Assembly: GCA_008933835.1 (NCBI GenBank)
Contig: WBUG01000006.1
Location: forward strand, 1 to 64,000
DNA: 64,000 nucleotides
Direction: 5' to 3'
Origin: Bacteroidota bacterium
GTDB taxonomy: Bacteria > Bacteroidota > Ignavibacteria > UBA10030 > UBA8401
Position 1 is the first letter of the stretch, and each line of letters opens with the position of its first letter. The notes under the pieces were generated by a model, which searched no databases, was not told where the DNA came from, and saw nothing but the letters and a program-made list of their open reading frames with translations. Shown here one piece after another: positions 7,125 to 37,482 of the stretch. Position numbers and translations under genes: made by a program.

Positions 7125-8141
7125 TCAGACGATCTTCCGGCCGATGGCGTCGGCGATGACCCGGACCTGTTTCATCATCTCGTCGAACTGCGCCGGGAAA
7201 AGGCTCTGGGCGCCGTCAGACTTGGCGTGGTCCGGGTCGTTGTGCACTTCCACGATGATGCCGTCCGCTCCGGCCGCCACCGCGGCGCGGGCCATGGGGA
7301 TGACCTTATCGCGGATGCCGATGCCGTGCGACGGGTCCGCGATGATGGGGAGGTGGCTCTTGGCGTGGACCACGGGAATGGCGCTGATGTCCATCGTATT
7401 GCGCGTGGCGGTCTCGAACGTGCGGATGCCCCGTTCGCAGAGCATCACGCGCTTGTTCCCGCTGGAGAGGATGTATTCGGCGGACATCAGCCACTCCTCG
7501 AACGTGGCGGAGAGTCCCCGCTTGAGCATGACGGGCTTCGTCGCCTTCCCGAGCTCCCGGAGGAAGTTGTAGTTCTGCATGTTCCGCGCGCCGATCTGGA
7601 TGACGTCCGCGTACCGCTCCATCAGTTCGAGCTGCGACGCGTCCATCGCCTCGGTGATGACCTTCAGTCCGTTGTCGTCCGCCGCCTTCCGCATCAGCTT
7701 CAGCCCCTCCTCTCCCAGTCCCTGGAACGCATACGGCGATGTGCGGGGTTTGAACGCGCCGCCGCGGAGGAACTGCGCGCCGGCCTTCGCCACGTGTTCC
7801 GCGATGACGCCGATCTGCCGCTCGTTCTCCACGGAGCAGGGCCCGGCCATCACCACCACGGTGTCGCCGCCGATGGGGACGCCGCCGACGTCGATGACGC
7901 TCTTCTCGTTGAGGAAGGTGCGGCTGGCGAGCTTGTACGGTTCGGTGATGCGGTAGACGTGCGCCACGCCGGGGAGCAGTTCCACCTGCCGGGTGTCGAA
8001 ATCGGGCTTCACGCCGATGGCGCCCAGGACGGTCTGATTGACCCCCGTGGAGCGGTGCACGTCGAACCCGAAATCGTGCAGGACCTTGATGATGCCTTCG
8101 ATGTCCTTCTCGGAGGCGTTCTGTTGTACGACAACGACCAT
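7125..8141 (-). CDS. aroF: 3-deoxy-7-phosphoheptulonate synthase (AroF type II-like with N-terminal regulatory domain)
   Basis: 'MAGPCSVENERQIGVIAEHVAKAGAQFLRGGAFKPRTSPYAFQGLGEEGL...DPSHGIGIRDKVIPMARAAVAAGADGIIVEVH'. Confidence 0.93.
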   Translation of the reverse strand: MVVVVQQNASEKDIEGIIKVLHDFGFDVHRSTGVNQTVLGAIGVKPDFDTRQVELLPGVAHVYRITEPYKLASRTFLNEKSVIDVGGVPIGGDTVVVMAGPCSVENERQIGVIAEHVAKAGAQFLRGGAFKPRTSPYAFQGLGEEGLKLMRKAADDNGLKVITEAMDASQLELMERYADVIQIGARNMQNYNFLRELGKATKPVMLKRGLSATFEEWLMSAEYILSSGNKRVMLCERGIRTFETATRNTMDISAIPVVHAKSHLPIIADPSHGIGIRDKVIPMARAAVAAGADGIIVEVHNDPDHAKSDGAQSLFPAQFDEMMKQVRVIADAIGRKIV

Positions 8142-8225
8142 AATGTGATCTCTAAATGGAGGGAATAGAAATACAAAAAGAGCTAAGAGAAATCGTGTGC
8201 GACGGGGTGCCGGTGACCGCGTCCG

Positions 8226-8999
8226 TCACTCGTACCGGTCGAGCTTGAAGCTCTCGCCGAGGTACAGTTTCCGCGCCTCCGGGTCGTTGGCGAGCTCTTC
8301 GGCGCTGCCGGCCTTCAGGATCCGGCCCTCGAAGAGGAGGTACGACCGGTCCGTGATGGAGAGGGTCTCGTGCACGTTGTGGTCCGTGATGAGCACGCCG
8401 ATGTTCCGGTACTTCAGCTGCGTGACGATGCCCATGATGTCTTCGACCGCGATGGGATCGATGCCGGCGAACGGTTCGTCCAGCAGGATGAACTTCGGGT
8501 CCGTGGCCAGCGCGCGGGCGATCTCGGTGCGGCGGCGCTCGCCTCCGGAGAGCATATATCCCTTGCTCTTCGCGATGTGGGTCAGACCGAACTCCTCCAG
8601 CAGCCGTTCGCACCGCTGCGCCTGTTCGGCGGCCGGAAGTCCGGTCAGCTGCAGCACGGAACGGATGTTGTCCCGCACCGTCATGGTTCGGAAGACCGAC
8701 GCCTCCTGCGTCAGGTATCCCACCCCCGCCCGGGCCCGCCGGTACATCGGCAGGCGGGTGATCTCCTTGTCGTCCAGGAACACCTTCCCCCCGTTGGGAC
8801 GGATCATCCCGACGATCATGTAGAAGGAAGTGGACTTGCCGGCGCCGTTCGGTCCGAGCAGTCCCACGATCTCCCCCTGCCGAACGGAGAGGGAGACGTC
8901 GTTGACGACGGTCCGTTTCTTGTACTTCTTCACGAGCGCCTCGGCGCGCAGCACCATGCCGGGGGTCCGTGTCTGTTCGTTCTGTTGGTCCATGTTCAT
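8226..8999 (-). CDS. lptB: LPS export ABC transporter ATP-binding protein
   Basis: Walker A 'GLLGPNGAGKST', 'LSGGERRRTEIARALA', 'ILLDEPFAGIDPIAVEDI' LptB-type signature. Confidence 0.95.
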   Translation of the reverse strand: MNMDQQNEQTRTPGMVLRAEALVKKYKKRTVVNDVSLSVRQGEIVGLLGPNGAGKSTSFYMIVGMIRPNGGKVFLDDKEITRLPMYRRARAGVGYLTQEASVFRTMTVRDNIRSVLQLTGLPAAEQAQRCERLLEEFGLTHIAKSKGYMLSGGERRRTEIARALATDPKFILLDEPFAGIDPIAVEDIMGIVTQLKYRNIGVLITDHNVHETLSITDRSYLLFEGRILKAGSAEELANDPEARKLYLGESFKLDRYE

Positions 9000-10261
9000 T
9001 TCCGTGGCGGGAAGACGGTCGAATGGTCCGGCCGGTCGTTCCGCAGCGTGAATCCGTCCAGGTTGACAGAACCGATGCCGTTCCGTTCCAGCAGCGTCTC
9101 GGGGACGTACGTCCCTTCGATGCCGGCCGCGACATGGATGGTCTTCGGACGTCCCTCCTCGAACAGCATCCGGATGAAATCGCCGGTCGTCTTATTGACG
9201 CCGTTGCCCGCCCCCTCGTCGAAGAGGAAGTAGAGGCTCACCGCGTTCCGTTCCACCAGCGTTTCGCGCAGCTTGTTCTCCTCGAACCGCAGCAGGATGC
9301 TGCGTCCGGTCAGCTGGTTGTACCGGAGCGGGAATGCCGAGTCCGCGAGCGAGGCAACGAACGCCCGGGTGCGGATGGCGGCCGATACGAGCCGATCGTC
9401 GCGCAGGTGGAGCAGGATGGTGTCGCCGGTGACCTGGTTCTCGTCGTACCACACCACCGGCCGCGAAAAGAGTTCGATGCGTTCCTGTTGCGTATGGTAC
9501 AGGAGCAGGCCGCACCGCGCCGCCATGGCGCCCCGCACGATGACGACGCTGTCGGTCACGACCAGTTTCTGGCTCGAATCGTCGAACGATTCCATCACCA
9601 CTCCCCGTACGGCCAGGGTGTCGATCTCACCCGAGGCGGCGGTGTCGATCTGCAGCAGCCGCGGCTCCTCGGTCATGCGGCTGTATCCGGTCGAATCGAG
9701 GTGCACCAGATGGTGCCCGTACATCGTGACGTTGTCCGACGGATTGACGATGCGGACGTTCAGCATCGCGACGGACCTCCGTTCGCGCTCGAAGTACGTC
9801 AGCTGCTCGCAGTGGATGGTGGAGGACGAATCGATGACCCGGACGTTCCGCTGGAAGAACGCCTGGTCCCGGTCCATGTCGTACGAACCGATGTCCGCCA
9901 GCAGCGTGACATGGGGCGTCTTCAGCCGAACGTTCCCTTCGCCGTCCGCCCGGCGTTTGTCGCCGTAGTACCGTCCTTTGCGCGACGTGAGCGTGACGGT
10001 GTCGCGGACGATGCGGACGTTCCCGTTCAGTTCGATCTCGTTCCGGTTCAGGTACTGCACCGCCCGGTCGCACCAGACGCGCACGTTCCCCTGCCGGAAG
10101 CGGACGTTCCCTTCGAGCTCCCGCACGTCCTCCCCGTTGTCGAGCCGCCGTCCCGAGAAGATGTCGGCGTTCTGGAGGATGACCGGTTCCTTCGTCTGTC
10201 CCGCCGCTGTCAGCAGGAGCAGCGCCGTCAGCGTCAGCGTATGGAGGAGGGGACGCGTCAT
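8996..10261 (-). CDS. OstA/LptA-like protein with signal peptide (extended)
   Basis: Signal peptide; repeated 'GNVR' beta-jellyroll repeats of the OstA fold; sits between lptB and lptC. Confidence 0.85.
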   Translation of the reverse strand: MTRPLLHTLTLTALLLLTAAGQTKEPVILQNADIFSGRRLDNGEDVRELEGNVRFRQGNVRVWCDRAVQYLNRNEIELNGNVRIVRDTVTLTSRKGRYYGDKRRADGEGNVRLKTPHVTLLADIGSYDMDRDQAFFQRNVRVIDSSSTIHCEQLTYFERERRSVAMLNVRIVNPSDNVTMYGHHLVHLDSTGYSRMTEEPRLLQIDTAASGEIDTLAVRGVVMESFDDSSQKLVVTDSVVIVRGAMAARCGLLLYHTQQERIELFSRPVVWYDENQVTGDTILLHLRDDRLVSAAIRTRAFVASLADSAFPLRYNQLTGRSILLRFEENKLRETLVERNAVSLYFLFDEGAGNGVNKTTGDFIRMLFEEGRPKTIHVAAGIEGTYVPETLLERNGIGSVNLDGFTLRNDRPDHSTVFPPRK

Positions 10262-10788
10262 GGTCCTTCCGACTGGCCCGTCACCTTGAAGATGCGGTAG
10301 TTGCGCAGGTTATGGTCCGACTCGAAGCCGGTCCCCTGCAGCCGCTCCCGCGGCGAGACGATGCGGACGAACTCGGGGGAATGGATGCGCTGGCGGCGGT
10401 TGTCCCAGAACATCGTCTCGGTGTACACCACCGTTCCGCTGTCCGACCGGACGACCACGTTCCCGGTCGCCTCCAGGTCGTTGCTCCCTTCGTCCACCGA
10501 ACCGCGGACGGAGGTGAGCTTCGAGGTGTGCGCCCCGTTCTCGTCGAAGAAGTCGACCGTGACGCCGGAATCGAGATGCGTGACCCGCGAGTTGTCGTAC
10601 GCGAAGATATGTCCCGCCCGCACCACCGCCTTCACCACGCCGGAGTCGGAGAAGGTGATGGTGGAACCCCAGCTCTCCTGCGACGGGAGCTGCCGTCCGG
10701 AGACGCCGCTCAGGACGGAAGGCTTCACTTTCTCCTCGCAAGCGGTCAGCAGCAGGGCCAGCAAGGCGAGGACGAGGGAGCGCTTCAC
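10258..10788 (-). CDS. lptC: LPS export periplasmic protein LptC
   Basis: Lipobox-like 'LLALLLTACEEK', 'TITFSDSGVVKAVVRAGHIFAYD...VDFFDENGAHTSKLTSVRGSVD...TGNVVVRSDSGTVVYTETMFWDNRRQRI'. Confidence 0.9.
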   Translation of the reverse strand: MKRSLVLALLALLLTACEEKVKPSVLSGVSGRQLPSQESWGSTITFSDSGVVKAVVRAGHIFAYDNSRVTHLDSGVTVDFFDENGAHTSKLTSVRGSVDEGSNDLEATGNVVVRSDSGTVVYTETMFWDNRRQRIHSPEFVRIVSPRERLQGTGFESDHNLRNYRIFKVTGQSEGP

Positions 10789-11762
10789 GTGGCGGAATCC
10801 CCTCCCAGCCCGGCCCGCACCAGGTCATGCAGGTGCACCACGCCGACCGGCCGTTTCCGGTCGTCAACGATGATGAGCTGCGTGATGCTGTGCGCCTCCA
10901 TCTCCTGCAGGGCCGCCGAGGCGAGCATGCCGGCGCGGATGGTCTTCGGGTCCTTCGTCATCACCTGTTCCGCGGTGAGACCGGAGACGTCGGAGGTCTT
11001 CTGCAGCAGCCGGCGCAGGTCGCCGTCCGTGATGATGCCGGCGAGCGTACCGTCTCCCGAGGTCACACAGGTGGCGCCGAGCCGTTTGGCGGTGATCTCC
11101 AGGATGGCGTCCTTCAGGCTCGCGGCGGGACCGATGACCGGCACCTGGTCTCCGGTGATGGCGAGTTCCTCCACCTTCAGCAGCAGCCGTTTCCCGAGAT
11201 TTCCGCCCGGATGGAACAGGGCGAAATCGTCCGCGGTGAACTGCTTCCTCTCCAGCAGCGTCACCGCGATGGCGTCACCCATGGCGAGGGTGACCGTGGT
11301 CGAGGTGGTGGGCGCCAGATTGTGCGGGCACGCTTCCTCCTTCACCGAGATGTCCAGGACGATGTCCGACATCCGGGCGAGGGGCGACGAGAGGTTCCCG
11401 ACCATGGCGATGACGGGAACGCCGATGCGTTTGAACATCGGCATCAGCTGCCGCAGTTCCTGCGTGTCGCCGCTCTTCGAGATGCAGATGACGGCGTCGT
11501 CGCCGCGCACCATGCCCAGGTCGCCGTGCACCGCGTCCGACGGATGGAGGAAGATGGCGGGAGTGCCGGTGGAGTTCATCGTGGCGACGATCTTCCGGGC
11601 GATGATGCCGGACTTGCCCATGCCGGTAACGATGACGCGTCCCGCGCAGGCGAACAGGATGTCGATGGCCTTCTGGAAATCGGCGCCGATGCGGGATTCG
11701 AGGGACGCGACCGCGTCCGCTTCCATCCGGATGACCTCTTTCGCTGTCGTAATGTCGTTCAT
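10785..11762 (-). CDS. kdsD: Arabinose-5-phosphate isomerase KdsD (SIS + CBS pair)
   Basis: 'GRVIVTGMGKSGIIARKIVATMNSTGTPAIFLHPSDAVHGDLGMVRGDDAVICISKSGDTQEL' and CBS domains. Confidence 0.95.
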   Translation of the reverse strand: MNDITTAKEVIRMEADAVASLESRIGADFQKAIDILFACAGRVIVTGMGKSGIIARKIVATMNSTGTPAIFLHPSDAVHGDLGMVRGDDAVICISKSGDTQELRQLMPMFKRIGVPVIAMVGNLSSPLARMSDIVLDISVKEEACPHNLAPTTSTTVTLAMGDAIAVTLLERKQFTADDFALFHPGGNLGKRLLLKVEELAITGDQVPVIGPAASLKDAILEITAKRLGATCVTSGDGTLAGIITDGDLRRLLQKTSDVSGLTAEQVMTKDPKTIRAGMLASAALQEMEAHSITQLIIVDDRKRPVGVVHLHDLVRAGLGGDSAT

Positions 11763-11775
11763 CGCCGTTGTCCGG

Positions 11776-12603
11776 TCATGTGGTGGTGGAACGGTACGCC
11801 GCATCGATGGCGAGTACCTGGCGCATCAGGCCTTCGGCCCGGTCCAGCGGCAGTTGACTTGCGGCGTCGCTGAGCGCCTTCGCCGGGTCCGGGTGCGTCT
11901 CGATGAACAGCGCGTCGATGCCGACCGCCGCTCCGGCCCGCGCGAGGGGGGCGATGAACTCCGGCTGCCCTCCGCTCTGTCCTCCCCCGCCGCTCGGCAG
12001 CTGCACGGAATGCGTGGCGTCGAGCACCACGGGATATCCGAGCGACCGCATCATCGTCAGTCCGCGCATGTCCACCACGAGATTGTGGTAACCGAACGTC
12101 GTCCCCCGTTCGGTGACGAGGATGTTCCGGTTCCCGGTGGACGCGACCTTCTCCACCGGATGGCGCATGTCGTCCGGGGCCAGGAACTGCCCTTTCTTGA
12201 TGTTGACCGCCCGGCCGGTCTCCCCGGCGGCCAGCAGCAGGTCGGTCTGCCGGCAGAGGAACGCCGGTATCTGCAGCACATCCGCCACCCGGGCCGCCGA
12301 CGCCGCTTCTTCCGCCGTGTGGATGTCCGTCAGCACCGGAAGGCCGAACCGCGCCTTCATCTCTGCAAGGATGCCGAGCGCCTCGTCCATGCCTATGCCG
12401 GTGAAGCCCTGCATGCTCGTCCGGTTCGCCTTCTTGTAAGACGATTTGAAGACCAGCGGAACGCCGAGCCGTCCGGCCATCGTTGTGAGATGCTCGGCGG
12501 TGCGGAAGATCATCTCGCGGCTCTCGACGACACAGGGGCCGGCGATGAGCACGAGCGGATGTCCCGCGCCCACGGGGATGGAGCCGATGTGCACACTGTT
12601 CAT
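11776..12603 (-). CDS. kdsA: 3-deoxy-8-phosphooctulonate synthase
   Basis: 'LIAGPCVVESREMIFRTAEHL...VFKSSYKKANRTSMQGFTGIGMDEAL...VLDATHSVQLP'; ATG at 12603. Confidence 0.95.
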   Translation of the reverse strand: MNSVHIGSIPVGAGHPLVLIAGPCVVESREMIFRTAEHLTTMAGRLGVPLVFKSSYKKANRTSMQGFTGIGMDEALGILAEMKARFGLPVLTDIHTAEEAASAARVADVLQIPAFLCRQTDLLLAAGETGRAVNIKKGQFLAPDDMRHPVEKVASTGNRNILVTERGTTFGYHNLVVDMRGLTMMRSLGYPVVLDATHSVQLPSGGGGQSGGQPEFIAPLARAGAAVGIDALFIETHPDPAKALSDAASQLPLDRAEGLMRQVLAIDAAYRSTTT

Positions 12604-12651
12604 GGAGGTCAAGGTACCATTCTTTCTCTGTTTATGCAAAGAACGCGGCCG

Positions 12652-14139
12652 TTACAGCATCAGCCAGAGCGCGAGCGGTCCCGCCGCGGCGCACGCCCAG
12701 TTCACGATGTCGTTGTCGAACCACCGGATCCCTTTCGCGAGTTCGTTCGGTACGCCGTCGGACACCGTCCGTTCGGTGAGCTTCCCCTCCCGCGTGCGGT
12801 ACTGTGCCTGCAGTGTGGCGCCGAGCAGACTGTCCGTCAGCGCACCCGCCATACCGGCGACGGCGAGCAGCATGCCGGTCCGGAACGGAACGGCTGCCGG
12901 GTCCATCACAGCGGCCGTGAGGGCGATGAGAGCAGCTCCCGCCGTGCCGCCGAGGAGACCGATGAACGAAACGCCGCCGCTCGTGCCGGGTTCCACACGG
13001 CGGAAGGAGACGATGGAGACCGGTCGTCCCTTGCCGAGAATGCCGATCTCGGTCCCCCACGTGTCGGCGGTGGCCGCCGCGATGGCGGCGATGTAGAGCA
13101 GGTACAGTTCCTCCGTTCCCGGGAAGGCGTACGAAGCGACGAGCAGCAGTCCGGCGACGCCGCCGTTCGCGGCCACCTGACCTTCGTCCCGTTTGTCGGT
13201 CTTCTCGAAGACGGTGTCGTACTTCCGCTTCCGGGACTTCTCGTACTTGGAGAGCAGACTGGAGGCGACGAAGAAGACGAGGATGGGAACGGTCCAGCGC
13301 CAGCCACCGAGCCCATAGATGGTCGCCGCGAGCAGGAAGGTGGCGATGCTGCCGCTCGGCGAGAGGAACCGGAGCCGCAGCGACAGCAGGGAGATGCCCG
13401 CGCCGAGCACCGTGCCGTGGAACATCCGCTGGAGGTCGTGCGCGGGATCCGGCATGAAGAAGTAGTAGATCATCAACGACGCGCCGAGCGGGATGGTGAG
13501 GTTGTCGAACCCCTTGGACGAGATGGCCTCCCACGCGGTGGCGAACAGACCGACCGCGAACGCGACCTGGGCCGCGTGGTTCCACGACAGCTCCGGACCG
13601 AACGCCCGGAGGCCGAACACGGTCACCGCGGTGGTGGTGACGAACATCGCCAGGGAGCCTTCGTACGATTTCTTGTCGCTCGTCAACCGGTACTCGTGCG
13701 GCGAGCGGAGGTTCTCGCCGACGATGGCGGCTGCCGCATCGCCGAGCGCCAGGATGAGGATGGAGAGCGAGATGACGAACGGCGCCGCGTCCCAGAACAC
13801 GAGGACGAGGATGAGGAAGGAGACCGGATAGTAGACGGTGCCGTATGAGACGCGGTTGGTGCCGTGCATCCCTTTGAGCAGTCCGAGCCGGATGGCCGTA
13901 TAGTTGACGGCGATGAAGATGAGCGCCAGCAGGATGGCGGGGACGCCCGACGTGAAGAGCTGCGGCGCGAAGTAGATGAGGACGCCGGTGAGGATATGGA
14001 CGCTCTTCCGCGTGATCTCCGGCGAACCGCGAAAGGCGCGGCGGAGGAGCTCGGCGGCGGCGATGAACACGGTGATGGAGGCGAAGAGCAGCGCGAAGAG
14101 CTCCCATTCGTCGGTCGTCGGGCGGGCGAGCAGGTTCAT
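12652..14139 (-). CDS. Fusion of phytol/dolichol kinase-like (SEC59/VTE5) domain and DUF92 (VTE6-like) domain
   Basis: N-terminal 'RKSVHILTGVLIYF...LALGDAAAAIVGENL...DKKSYEGSLAMF'; C-terminal DUF92 'AAATADTWGTEIGILGKGRPVSIVSFRRVEPGTSGGVSFIGLLGG...ANELAKG-like end'. Confidence 0.8.
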   Translation of the reverse strand: MNLLARPTTDEWELFALLFASITVFIAAAELLRRAFRGSPEITRKSVHILTGVLIYFAPQLFTSGVPAILLALIFIAVNYTAIRLGLLKGMHGTNRVSYGTVYYPVSFLILVLVFWDAAPFVISLSILILALGDAAAAIVGENLRSPHEYRLTSDKKSYEGSLAMFVTTTAVTVFGLRAFGPELSWNHAAQVAFAVGLFATAWEAISSKGFDNLTIPLGASLMIYYFFMPDPAHDLQRMFHGTVLGAGISLLSLRLRFLSPSGSIATFLLAATIYGLGGWRWTVPILVFFVASSLLSKYEKSRKRKYDTVFEKTDKRDEGQVAANGGVAGLLLVASYAFPGTEELYLLYIAAIAAATADTWGTEIGILGKGRPVSIVSFRRVEPGTSGGVSFIGLLGGTAGAALIALTAAVMDPAAVPFRTGMLLAVAGMAGALTDSLLGATLQAQYRTREGKLTERTVSDGVPNELAKGIRWFDNDIVNWACAAAGPLALWLML

Positions 14140-30650: not shown

Positions 30651-30661
30651 GAAAAAAAAAT

Positions 30662-30775
<114 letters not shown>

Positions 30776-30853
30776 AAAGTTCTGACGATCAGGATGCTGC
30801 ATATGATCTTCCAAGTTTATTGATGCACGCGATATGCATTCAATAAAAAAATT

Positions 30854-33853
<3,000 letters not shown>

Positions 33854-34016
33854 AAAAATCTTTATTGAAGACATATACGTCAGTGCATCAATAAACTTGT
33901 TAAGAGCATATGCAATTTACTACAATCTGCCTACTGCAGGACCGTTTGCCCGCTCGCGCGGACGACTGAGTCCCATTCGACAGATTCATCCTGATTGTCA
34001 AAGAACAAAAAACTTG

Positions 34017-34089
34017 TGGAGCTAAGCGGGATCGAACCGCTAACCTCCTGCGTGCAAGGCAGGCGCTCTCCCAATTGAGCTATAGCCCC
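34017..34089 (-). tRNA. tRNA-Ala (TGC) in the 16S-23S spacer
   Basis: Minus strand GGGGCTATAGCTCAATTGGGAGAGCGCCTGCCTTGCACGCAGGAGGTTAGCGGTTCGATCCCGCTTAGCTCCA. Confidence 0.95.
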
Positions 34090-34124
34090 ATAGCCTCGTC
34101 AGTAGAACCTCCTGCTTGACAACG

Positions 34125-34198
<74 letters not shown>

Positions 34199-34303
34199 GG
34201 GAAACCGAAGATGGTACTTAAAAAATTTGTGTGCACGGAACAATCAAGCCAGTGGTCTTATCTCGTTGAATTCAACGATGCTTTCGCATCATTGTCTCCA
34301 TAA

Positions 34304-35835
<1,532 letters not shown>

Positions 35836-36201: not shown

Positions 36202-37478
36202 ATGACCGTCACCAGAGCACTCTACTCCCTCATCATCCTTCCCCTGCTCTACCTCCTGTTCCACGTCGGAAAATTCGTCAACGCGAAGGTCCGCCGCGGC
36301 GTCGAAGGGCGGGCGGGACTCTTCACGCGCCTGCCGGAACAGGCCGCGAAGCTCACCGGCACGCAGCGGCTCTGGTTCCACGCCTCCTCCCTCGGGGAGT
36401 TCGAACAGGCGAAGCCGATCATCGCCGCCGTGAAGGAGCGCCACCCGTCCACGGAGATCATCGCCACGTTCTTCTCGCCGTCGGGCTACGACAACTCGAA
36501 GAACTACAAGCTCGCGTCGCTCATCAGCTATCTGCCGTTCGACACCGCGGCGAACATGCAGCGCTTCGTCGACATCACCCGTCCCACCGCCGCCATCATC
36601 CTCCGCTATGACGTCTGGCCGAACATGGTGTGGACGCTGCACGACCGCAGCATCCCGGTCCTCATCGTCAACGCGACGATGACCGCGCGCTCCCCCCGAC
36701 TCTCCGCGGTCGCCCGCGGGTTCCACCGCCGTCTCTACGACCTGTTCTCCGCCATCCTCACCGTCTCGGCCGCGGACGCGGCGGCGTTCGCCCTCTTCGG
36801 AACCTCAACGCCGCTCATCGCCCCCGTCGGCGACACGCGCTTCGACCAGGTGAAACGGCGGAGCGACGACGCGCGCATGAAACAGATCCTCCCTCCCGCC
36901 GTCACCGCGGGACGGAAGGTGTTCATCGTGGGACAGAGCTGGGGAGAGGACGAATCGGTGCTGCTGCCGGTGCTCTTCAAGCTGCAGACGGAGGAACCGT
37001 CGCTCATCACCATCATCGTCCCGCACGAACCGACGGTGGAACATCTCGACGACCTGGAGAGCGCACTGGAGGGACGATGCCGGAGCATACGCTTCTCCGA
37101 GATGGGCCGCTACGCCGGCGAACCGGTGATCCTCATCGACAGCATCGGCATCCTCGTGGCGCTCTATCAGTACGCGCACGTCGTGTACGTGGGCGGAAGC
37201 TTCCGTCAGGGTGTCCATAACGTGCTCGAACCGGCGGTGTTCGGCGCTCCGGTCCTCTTCGGTCCCCGGCACACCAACTCGCAGGAGGCGGTCGAGCTCG
37301 CACGGCTCGGCGGCGCCTTCGTGGTCACCGGCGAGCGTTCGGCGTACCGGACGCTCCGCACCCTGCTCGACGACGCACCGCAGCGCGCGAAGGCCGGCGA
37401 GACCGCCCGGACGTTCGTCGCGGCCAATTGCGGCGCCACCGACCGCTTCCTCCTCCATCTCCAGCCGCTGCTCGAGCG

Positions 37479-37482
<4 letters not shown>
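36202..37482 (+). CDS. waaA: 3-deoxy-D-manno-octulosonic acid (Kdo) transferase
   Basis: 'LWFHASSLGEFEQAKPIIAAVKERHPSTEIIATFFSPSGYD...VYVGGSFRQGVHNVLEPAVFGAPVLFGPRH'. Confidence 0.93.

Follow-up and report, generated by a model that had tools for sequence, protein, structure and literature searches.

What does a protein do in which a SEC59-like membrane domain is followed, in the same polypeptide, by a DUF92 domain? Such a protein is encoded in the genome of a Bacteroidota bacterium (Ignavibacteria; UBA10030; UBA8401; assembly GCA_008933835.1), within positions 1-64,000 of contig WBUG01000006.1 (hereinafter the window, the whole stretch of 64,000 nucleotides that was analysed). An initial annotation of the window described it as a phytol/dolichol-kinase-like domain fused to DUF92 that would turn an isoprenoid alcohol into its diphosphate. 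The open reading frame indeed occupies the coordinates reported at that time, with the addition that it lies on the minus strand, which had not been given; all five quoted motifs are present in this one frame of 495 aa.

Two domains in one reading frame

12652-14139, minus strand: fusion ORF, SEC59/VTE5-like plus DUF92, 495 aa; ATG at 14139, stop at 12654-12652
13432-14139, minus strand: N-half, SEC59/CTP-transferase-superfamily prenol-kinase-like domain, residues 1-236
13984-14010, minus strand: RKSVHILTG motif, residues 44-52; R44 and H48 in 110/112 fused proteins
13717-13749, minus strand: ALGDAAAAIVG motif, residues 131-141 (D134/A137/G141); D134 in 111/112, G141 in 112/112
13642-13677, minus strand: DKKSYEGSLAMF motif, residues 155-166 (K157/G161); K157 in 109/112, G161 in 112/112
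12655-13431, minus strand: C-half, DUF92/COG1836 (VTE6-like), residues 237-495
13042-13074, minus strand: ATADTWGTEIG motif of DUF92, residues 356-366; D359, E364 and G366 invariant in 112 fused proteins
12973-12987, minus strand: GTSGG motif of DUF92, residues 385-389; G385 in 111/112, G388 in 112/112
12829-12834, minus strand: D436-S437 of DUF92, both in 112/112; placed by hhalign near the GD..ES metal-site motif of CdsA

The start of the frame and the stop of the upstream holA gene (DNA polymerase III delta) overlap by four bases (ATGA), and kdsA lies closely downstream, so that the frame is probably translated within an operon. The fusion is present in a single copy, and a search of the host genome with the N-half profile at E 0.001 identifies it as the sole protein.

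Within the full-length protein, a Pfam scan yields no confident match for the N-half; scanned alone, this region reaches CTP_transf_1 (PF01148) with E 6.2e-5 and 23.4 bits, just below the cut-off of 24 bits. The same family is matched by 14 of the 43 N-halves scanned, and in other genomes, independent whole-genome scans with PF01148 hit the fused frames as well. A profile-profile comparison of the N-half with CdsA gives E 1.7e-6 over 193 columns, and all eight membrane decoy families compared with the same profile score worse (E 0.019 to 0.76). In the hhalign output, ALGDAAAAIVG is aligned with CDTAAYFGG of CdsA, with D134 on the D..A...G motif, and DKKSYEGSLAMF, including K157, is aligned with SPNKSWEG. 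The RKxxH, DxxAxxxG, KxxxG and E...DNxxxP motifs of the SEC59/DGK1/VTE5 superfamily are all present, and R44, H48, D134, A137, G141, K157, G161, E204, D212 and N213 are each retained in 109-112 of the 112 fused proteins. By these sequence comparisons, the N-half is a member of the CTP-transferase/SEC59 superfamily. Among the CTP-dependent lipid-alcohol kinases of this superfamily, yeast Dgk1 and Sec59 and Plasmodium PolK share the RKxxH, DxxAxxxG and KKxxEG motifs with the N-half but are single-domain proteins lacking DUF92, and the substrate of Dgk1 is diacylglycerol. By analogy, R44 and D134 are the likely counterparts of R76 and D177 of Dgk1, and the spacing from D134 to G141 equals that of D177 and G184 in Dgk1. 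Yeast Dgk1 is inactive when it carries R76A or D177A (PMC3486869).

The C-half is identified with high confidence: PF01940 (DUF92) covers residues 248-486 with E 8.1e-64 and 215.8 bits against a curated cut-off of 27.5, and the hypothetical equivalog TIGR00297 reaches 117.2 bits, below the 205.85 required. The domain scan suggested by the initial annotation thus places DUF92 above its cut-off and the N-half, on its own, just under that of PF01148. R317, Q321, N325, D359, W361, E364, G366, D436, S437, G440, Q444, E456, N476 and N480 are retained in at least 109 of the 112 fused proteins; residues expected for catalysis are thus strictly conserved in both halves, and the lack of catalytic residues in one half, named at the outset as a reason to drop the two-step reading, is not observed. 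The match of DUF92 to the CdsA profile is weak (E 0.0016). Direct homology of the two halves is not shown by the present comparison, in which the hhalign scores (E 0.012-0.027) are no better than those of the best decoys (0.019-0.027); the published HHpred relationship between DUF92 (COG1836/PF01940) and PF01148 is stronger than this link (PMC5898192).

AlphaFold models both halves confidently (pLDDT 93 and pTM 0.90 for the full protein; 94 and 0.90 for the N-half alone). A Foldseek search started with the N-half model identifies CdsA (4q2e/4q2g) as the best topologically sensible PDB match with the probability of 0.85-0.90 (TM 0.34-0.37, E >0.1), a hint at the superfamily that falls short of proof. 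With the full model, Foldseek returns weak, length-driven matches only, and a sequence search of solved structures yields no useful match.

Predicted function and known relatives

The same architecture has been described in archaea. In Mbar_A3310 from Methanosarcina barkeri, Makarova, Galperin and Koonin (2015) found an N-terminal SEC59 domain fused to COG1836/PF01940, related the latter family to PF01148 and suggested for it a possible kinase role in the isoprenoid pathway (PMC5898192). Proteins of this type (arCOG02245/COG1836/PF01940) have the same domain order, SEC59-like first and then DUF92, and the same kind of predicted role as isoprenoid-pathway kinases, but they are archaeal whereas the fusions analysed here are bacterial, and the likeness rests on the published description of domain architecture. 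Since this fusion was published in 2015, the architecture and the core hypothesis are not new; the present analysis adds how the fusion is distributed in bacteria, that its N-halves form a separate clade, that the N-half was lost repeatedly, and what the host genome encodes. No assayed bacterial fusion was found in the literature, where bacterial fusions may have been mentioned earlier.

In plants, VTE5 (phytol kinase) and VTE6 (DUF92, phytyl-phosphate kinase) act in sequence (PMC5694494, PMC10849223), and a prenol kinase from Plasmodium was added in 2024 (PMC10849223). These enzymes and their cyanobacterial homologs share both families with the fusion, as well as the order proposed for the two steps, but plant VTE5 and VTE6 are separate proteins. 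According to the literature consulted, the conversion of prenyl-P to prenyl-PP by VTE6 has been shown in plants only; in Synechocystis, a COG1836 gene is listed as essential and assigned to phytol-phosphate metabolism (PMC3223725).

With modest confidence, we favor the reading of the fusion as a two-step prenol kinase (prenol to prenyl-P to prenyl-PP). As a bifunctional salvage kinase of the inner membrane, the protein would use its N-half to phosphorylate a free isoprenoid alcohol with CTP as the phosphate donor, and the DUF92 half would add a second phosphate to the resulting monophosphate, the diphosphate then returning to isoprenoid synthesis; the likely substrates would be C15-C20 prenols (geranylgeraniol, phytol, farnesol). 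We infer both activities, the order of the steps, CTP as the donor and the substrate; the conversion of an isoprenoid alcohol to its diphosphate by one polypeptide thus stands as a predicted activity, with two intact superfamily halves that fit sequential phosphorylation. A polypeptide with both domains would also offer a single assayable protein for DUF92 as a prenyl-phosphate kinase in bacteria.

Distribution, phylogeny and loss of the N-half

A scan of genome contigs identifies 80 loci, most of them matched over nearly the whole protein with identities of 33-58%; they belong to Ignavibacteria, KSB1, Calditrichota, Marinimicrobia and one Rhodothermales genome. In the phylum sample, DUF92 is found in 226 of 396 genomes, and frames of at least 400 aa hold 129 of 150 DUF92 matches among the matches listed, but neither fraction is a fair frequency because the sample consists mostly of green sulfur bacteria. 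As frame length is merely a proxy, the loci were rechecked with the N-half profile, which finds an N-half ahead of DUF92 in one and the same frame at 114 of 153 DUF92 loci. In this survey, of the kind that the initial annotation had suggested, the fusion is present in Ignavibacteria, green sulfur bacteria, KSB1, Calditrichota, Marinimicrobia and Rhodothermota, and is neither a chance event nor a local accident. Three families with the fused frame (f24, f26 and f39) are assigned to green sulfur bacteria because one genome per family was tested for the FMO protein and proved to encode it. These bacteria esterify chlorophylls with farnesol or phytol-like alcohols. The fusion links DUF92 to organisms in which such alcohols abound, and the remark that no chlorophyll genes are visible here requires a qualifier, as the fusion is shared with green sulfur bacteria.

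In the phylogenetic tree, the N-halves of the fusions form one clade (support 97/91), apart from the SEC59-like proteins that stand alone, which fall into two groups. Group I includes proteins of some Ignavibacteria and green sulfur bacteria, and we take it to be VTE5-like by the motifs TGDxxELLKGPLYF and WGDG; group II is general. Both motifs are absent from the sequence of the fusion protein, the N-half of which falls outside the VTE5-looking group; thus, of the original description of this domain, assignment to the SEC59/CTP-transferase superfamily holds and a close match to VTE5 does not. Among plasmids, the search for a VTE5 relative bearing a name gave one weak, unnamed match. Two families of green sulfur bacteria possess a group I protein besides the fusion, which, like the place of the N-half outside that group, counts against the prenol kinase reading. 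Three genomes of the host's own family (G093, G120 and G200) have a separate group II protein, and several genomes with a lone DUF92 encode a separate SEC59-like kinase.

The DUF92 tree requires 12 changes between the fused and stand-alone states, at least seven of which are forced by well-supported branches. Lone DUF92 genes occupy loci at which close relatives hold the fusion (L059, L064, L068 and L080), and the space after holA cannot accommodate a remnant. For example, the DUF92 protein of L059 (5986-6789) is 75% identical to the fused L003 and lies between the same holA and kdsA genes; clean losses recur in the pairs of L064 beside L002 and L080 beside L015. The N-half has therefore been lost cleanly, at least several times, with DUF92 staying at the same locus, so that DUF92 looks like the conserved core activity, and a single protein need not always combine both steps. 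A separate observation concerns L157 (G284:C34), whose DUF92 part falls in a distant clade and whose SEC59-like N-terminal part is very divergent; it may be an independent fusion.

Repeated loss, together with the position of the N-half clade apart from the VTE5-looking group, would also fit a protein in which only DUF92 acted on prenyl phosphates and the N-half phosphorylated another lipid (for example diacylglycerol, as Dgk1 does) or had a binding or regulatory role. One lineage, f21, agrees with this and counts against the prenol kinase reading: L126 (G011) has R44T, D134A and D212E and L132 (G001) has R44G, both with an intact DUF92 half. (K157 deviates in L128, L134 and L147.) Nevertheless, R44, D134, K157 and D212 are strictly constrained in almost all other lineages, and the separate SEC59-like kinase of several lone-DUF92 genomes could take over the first step, which makes this division of roles unlikely.

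Gene neighborhood and isoprenoid genes of the host

7125-12639, minus strand: LPS-related run comprising kdsA (DAHP_synth_1 family), a kdsD-like SIS/CBS protein, lptC, lptA/OstA and lptB, then DAHP synthase

This neighborhood could suggest that the two-domain kinase acts on long polyprenols, namely undecaprenol or another glycan-carrier lipid, and replenishes the pool of carriers for LPS or other envelope glycans. The fusion forms an apparent operon with kdsA, kdsD, lptC, lptA and lptB, and a membrane protein of the LPG_synthase_TM/AglD-like type is encoded nearby; ten Ignavibacteria copies have genes close to them that by eye are UppP-like, archaeal DUF92 genes adjoin uppS (PMC5898192), and the superfamily of the N-half is that of SEC59, a dolichol kinase. 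However, the kds/lpt run adjoins the fusion only in its own family and close kin; holA is upstream of all Ignavibacteria copies, a TolQ/ExbB-like gene (by eye) is downstream in green sulfur bacteria, and the neighbors in KSB1 and Marinimicrobia are unrelated. Because the contexts differ in this way between lineages, prediction of function from gene neighbors was rejected: there are no conserved functional neighbors, and no isoprenoid gene is a conserved neighbor across the copies compared, which counts against the prenol kinase reading too. Furthermore, no UppS signature was detected among the neighbors examined, and a second phosphate on undecaprenyl-P would be futile against UppP, so that a polyprenol substrate appears rather unlikely. 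Elsewhere in the window, there are a complete rRNA operon and, next to it, a gene for a protein that by eye resembles Kdo transferase:

30660-35833, minus strand: rRNA operon with 16S (34305-35833), two tRNAs, 23S (30851-33853) and 5S (30660-30776)
36202-37482, plus strand: ORF, Kdo transferase (WaaA/KdtA)-like

Returning to the prenol kinase reading, targeted family searches of the host genome identify the following genes:

C113:39224-39898, C162:13919-14641, C41:29321-30028 and C89:40439-41329: a GGGP synthase/PcrB homolog, two DGGGP-synthase-like UbiA proteins and an archaeal-type geranylgeranyl reductase

The two UbiA proteins are closest to DGGGP synthases and related prenyltransferases, with scores below the curated cut-offs. 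The genome also encodes heme O synthase and an MqnP-like enzyme; all these proteins are isoprenoid-using by family and are candidate users of the product of the fusion. The GGGP synthase, DGGGP-synthase-like and geranylgeranyl reductase genes could encode GGPP users, and the fusion may work together with these isoprenoid genes.

A CDP-lipid synthase of the CdsA/CarS type in place of a kinase, as in the CDP-diacylglycerol-type activity initially named as the alternative, is highly improbable: CdsA is related to the N-half distantly, at the superfamily level, and more weakly to DUF92, and the host combines GGGP and DGGGP synthase-like genes with no match to CarS in its genome, but the fusion, from which another reaction is expected, lacks the HGG..DR-bearing signature of CdsA, and a full, true CdsA is encoded on another contig, bacterial CdsA being able to serve ether lipids (PMC7852524).

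A more elaborate version of the prenol kinase reading, for which we see only a slim chance, is that SEC59-type kinases include a third subfamily, represented by the N-half and permanently joined to DUF92, and that prenyl monophosphate would be channeled between two related active sites, the resulting GGPP or phytyl-PP feeding a quinone pathway or one for archaeal-type ether lipids in FCB bacteria that are not photosynthetic. As an observation in its own right, the GGGP/DGGGP synthase-like and geranylgeranyl reductase genes make archaeal-type ether lipids possible in this bacterium, and a gene set for such lipids is known from FCB bacteria (PMC7852524).
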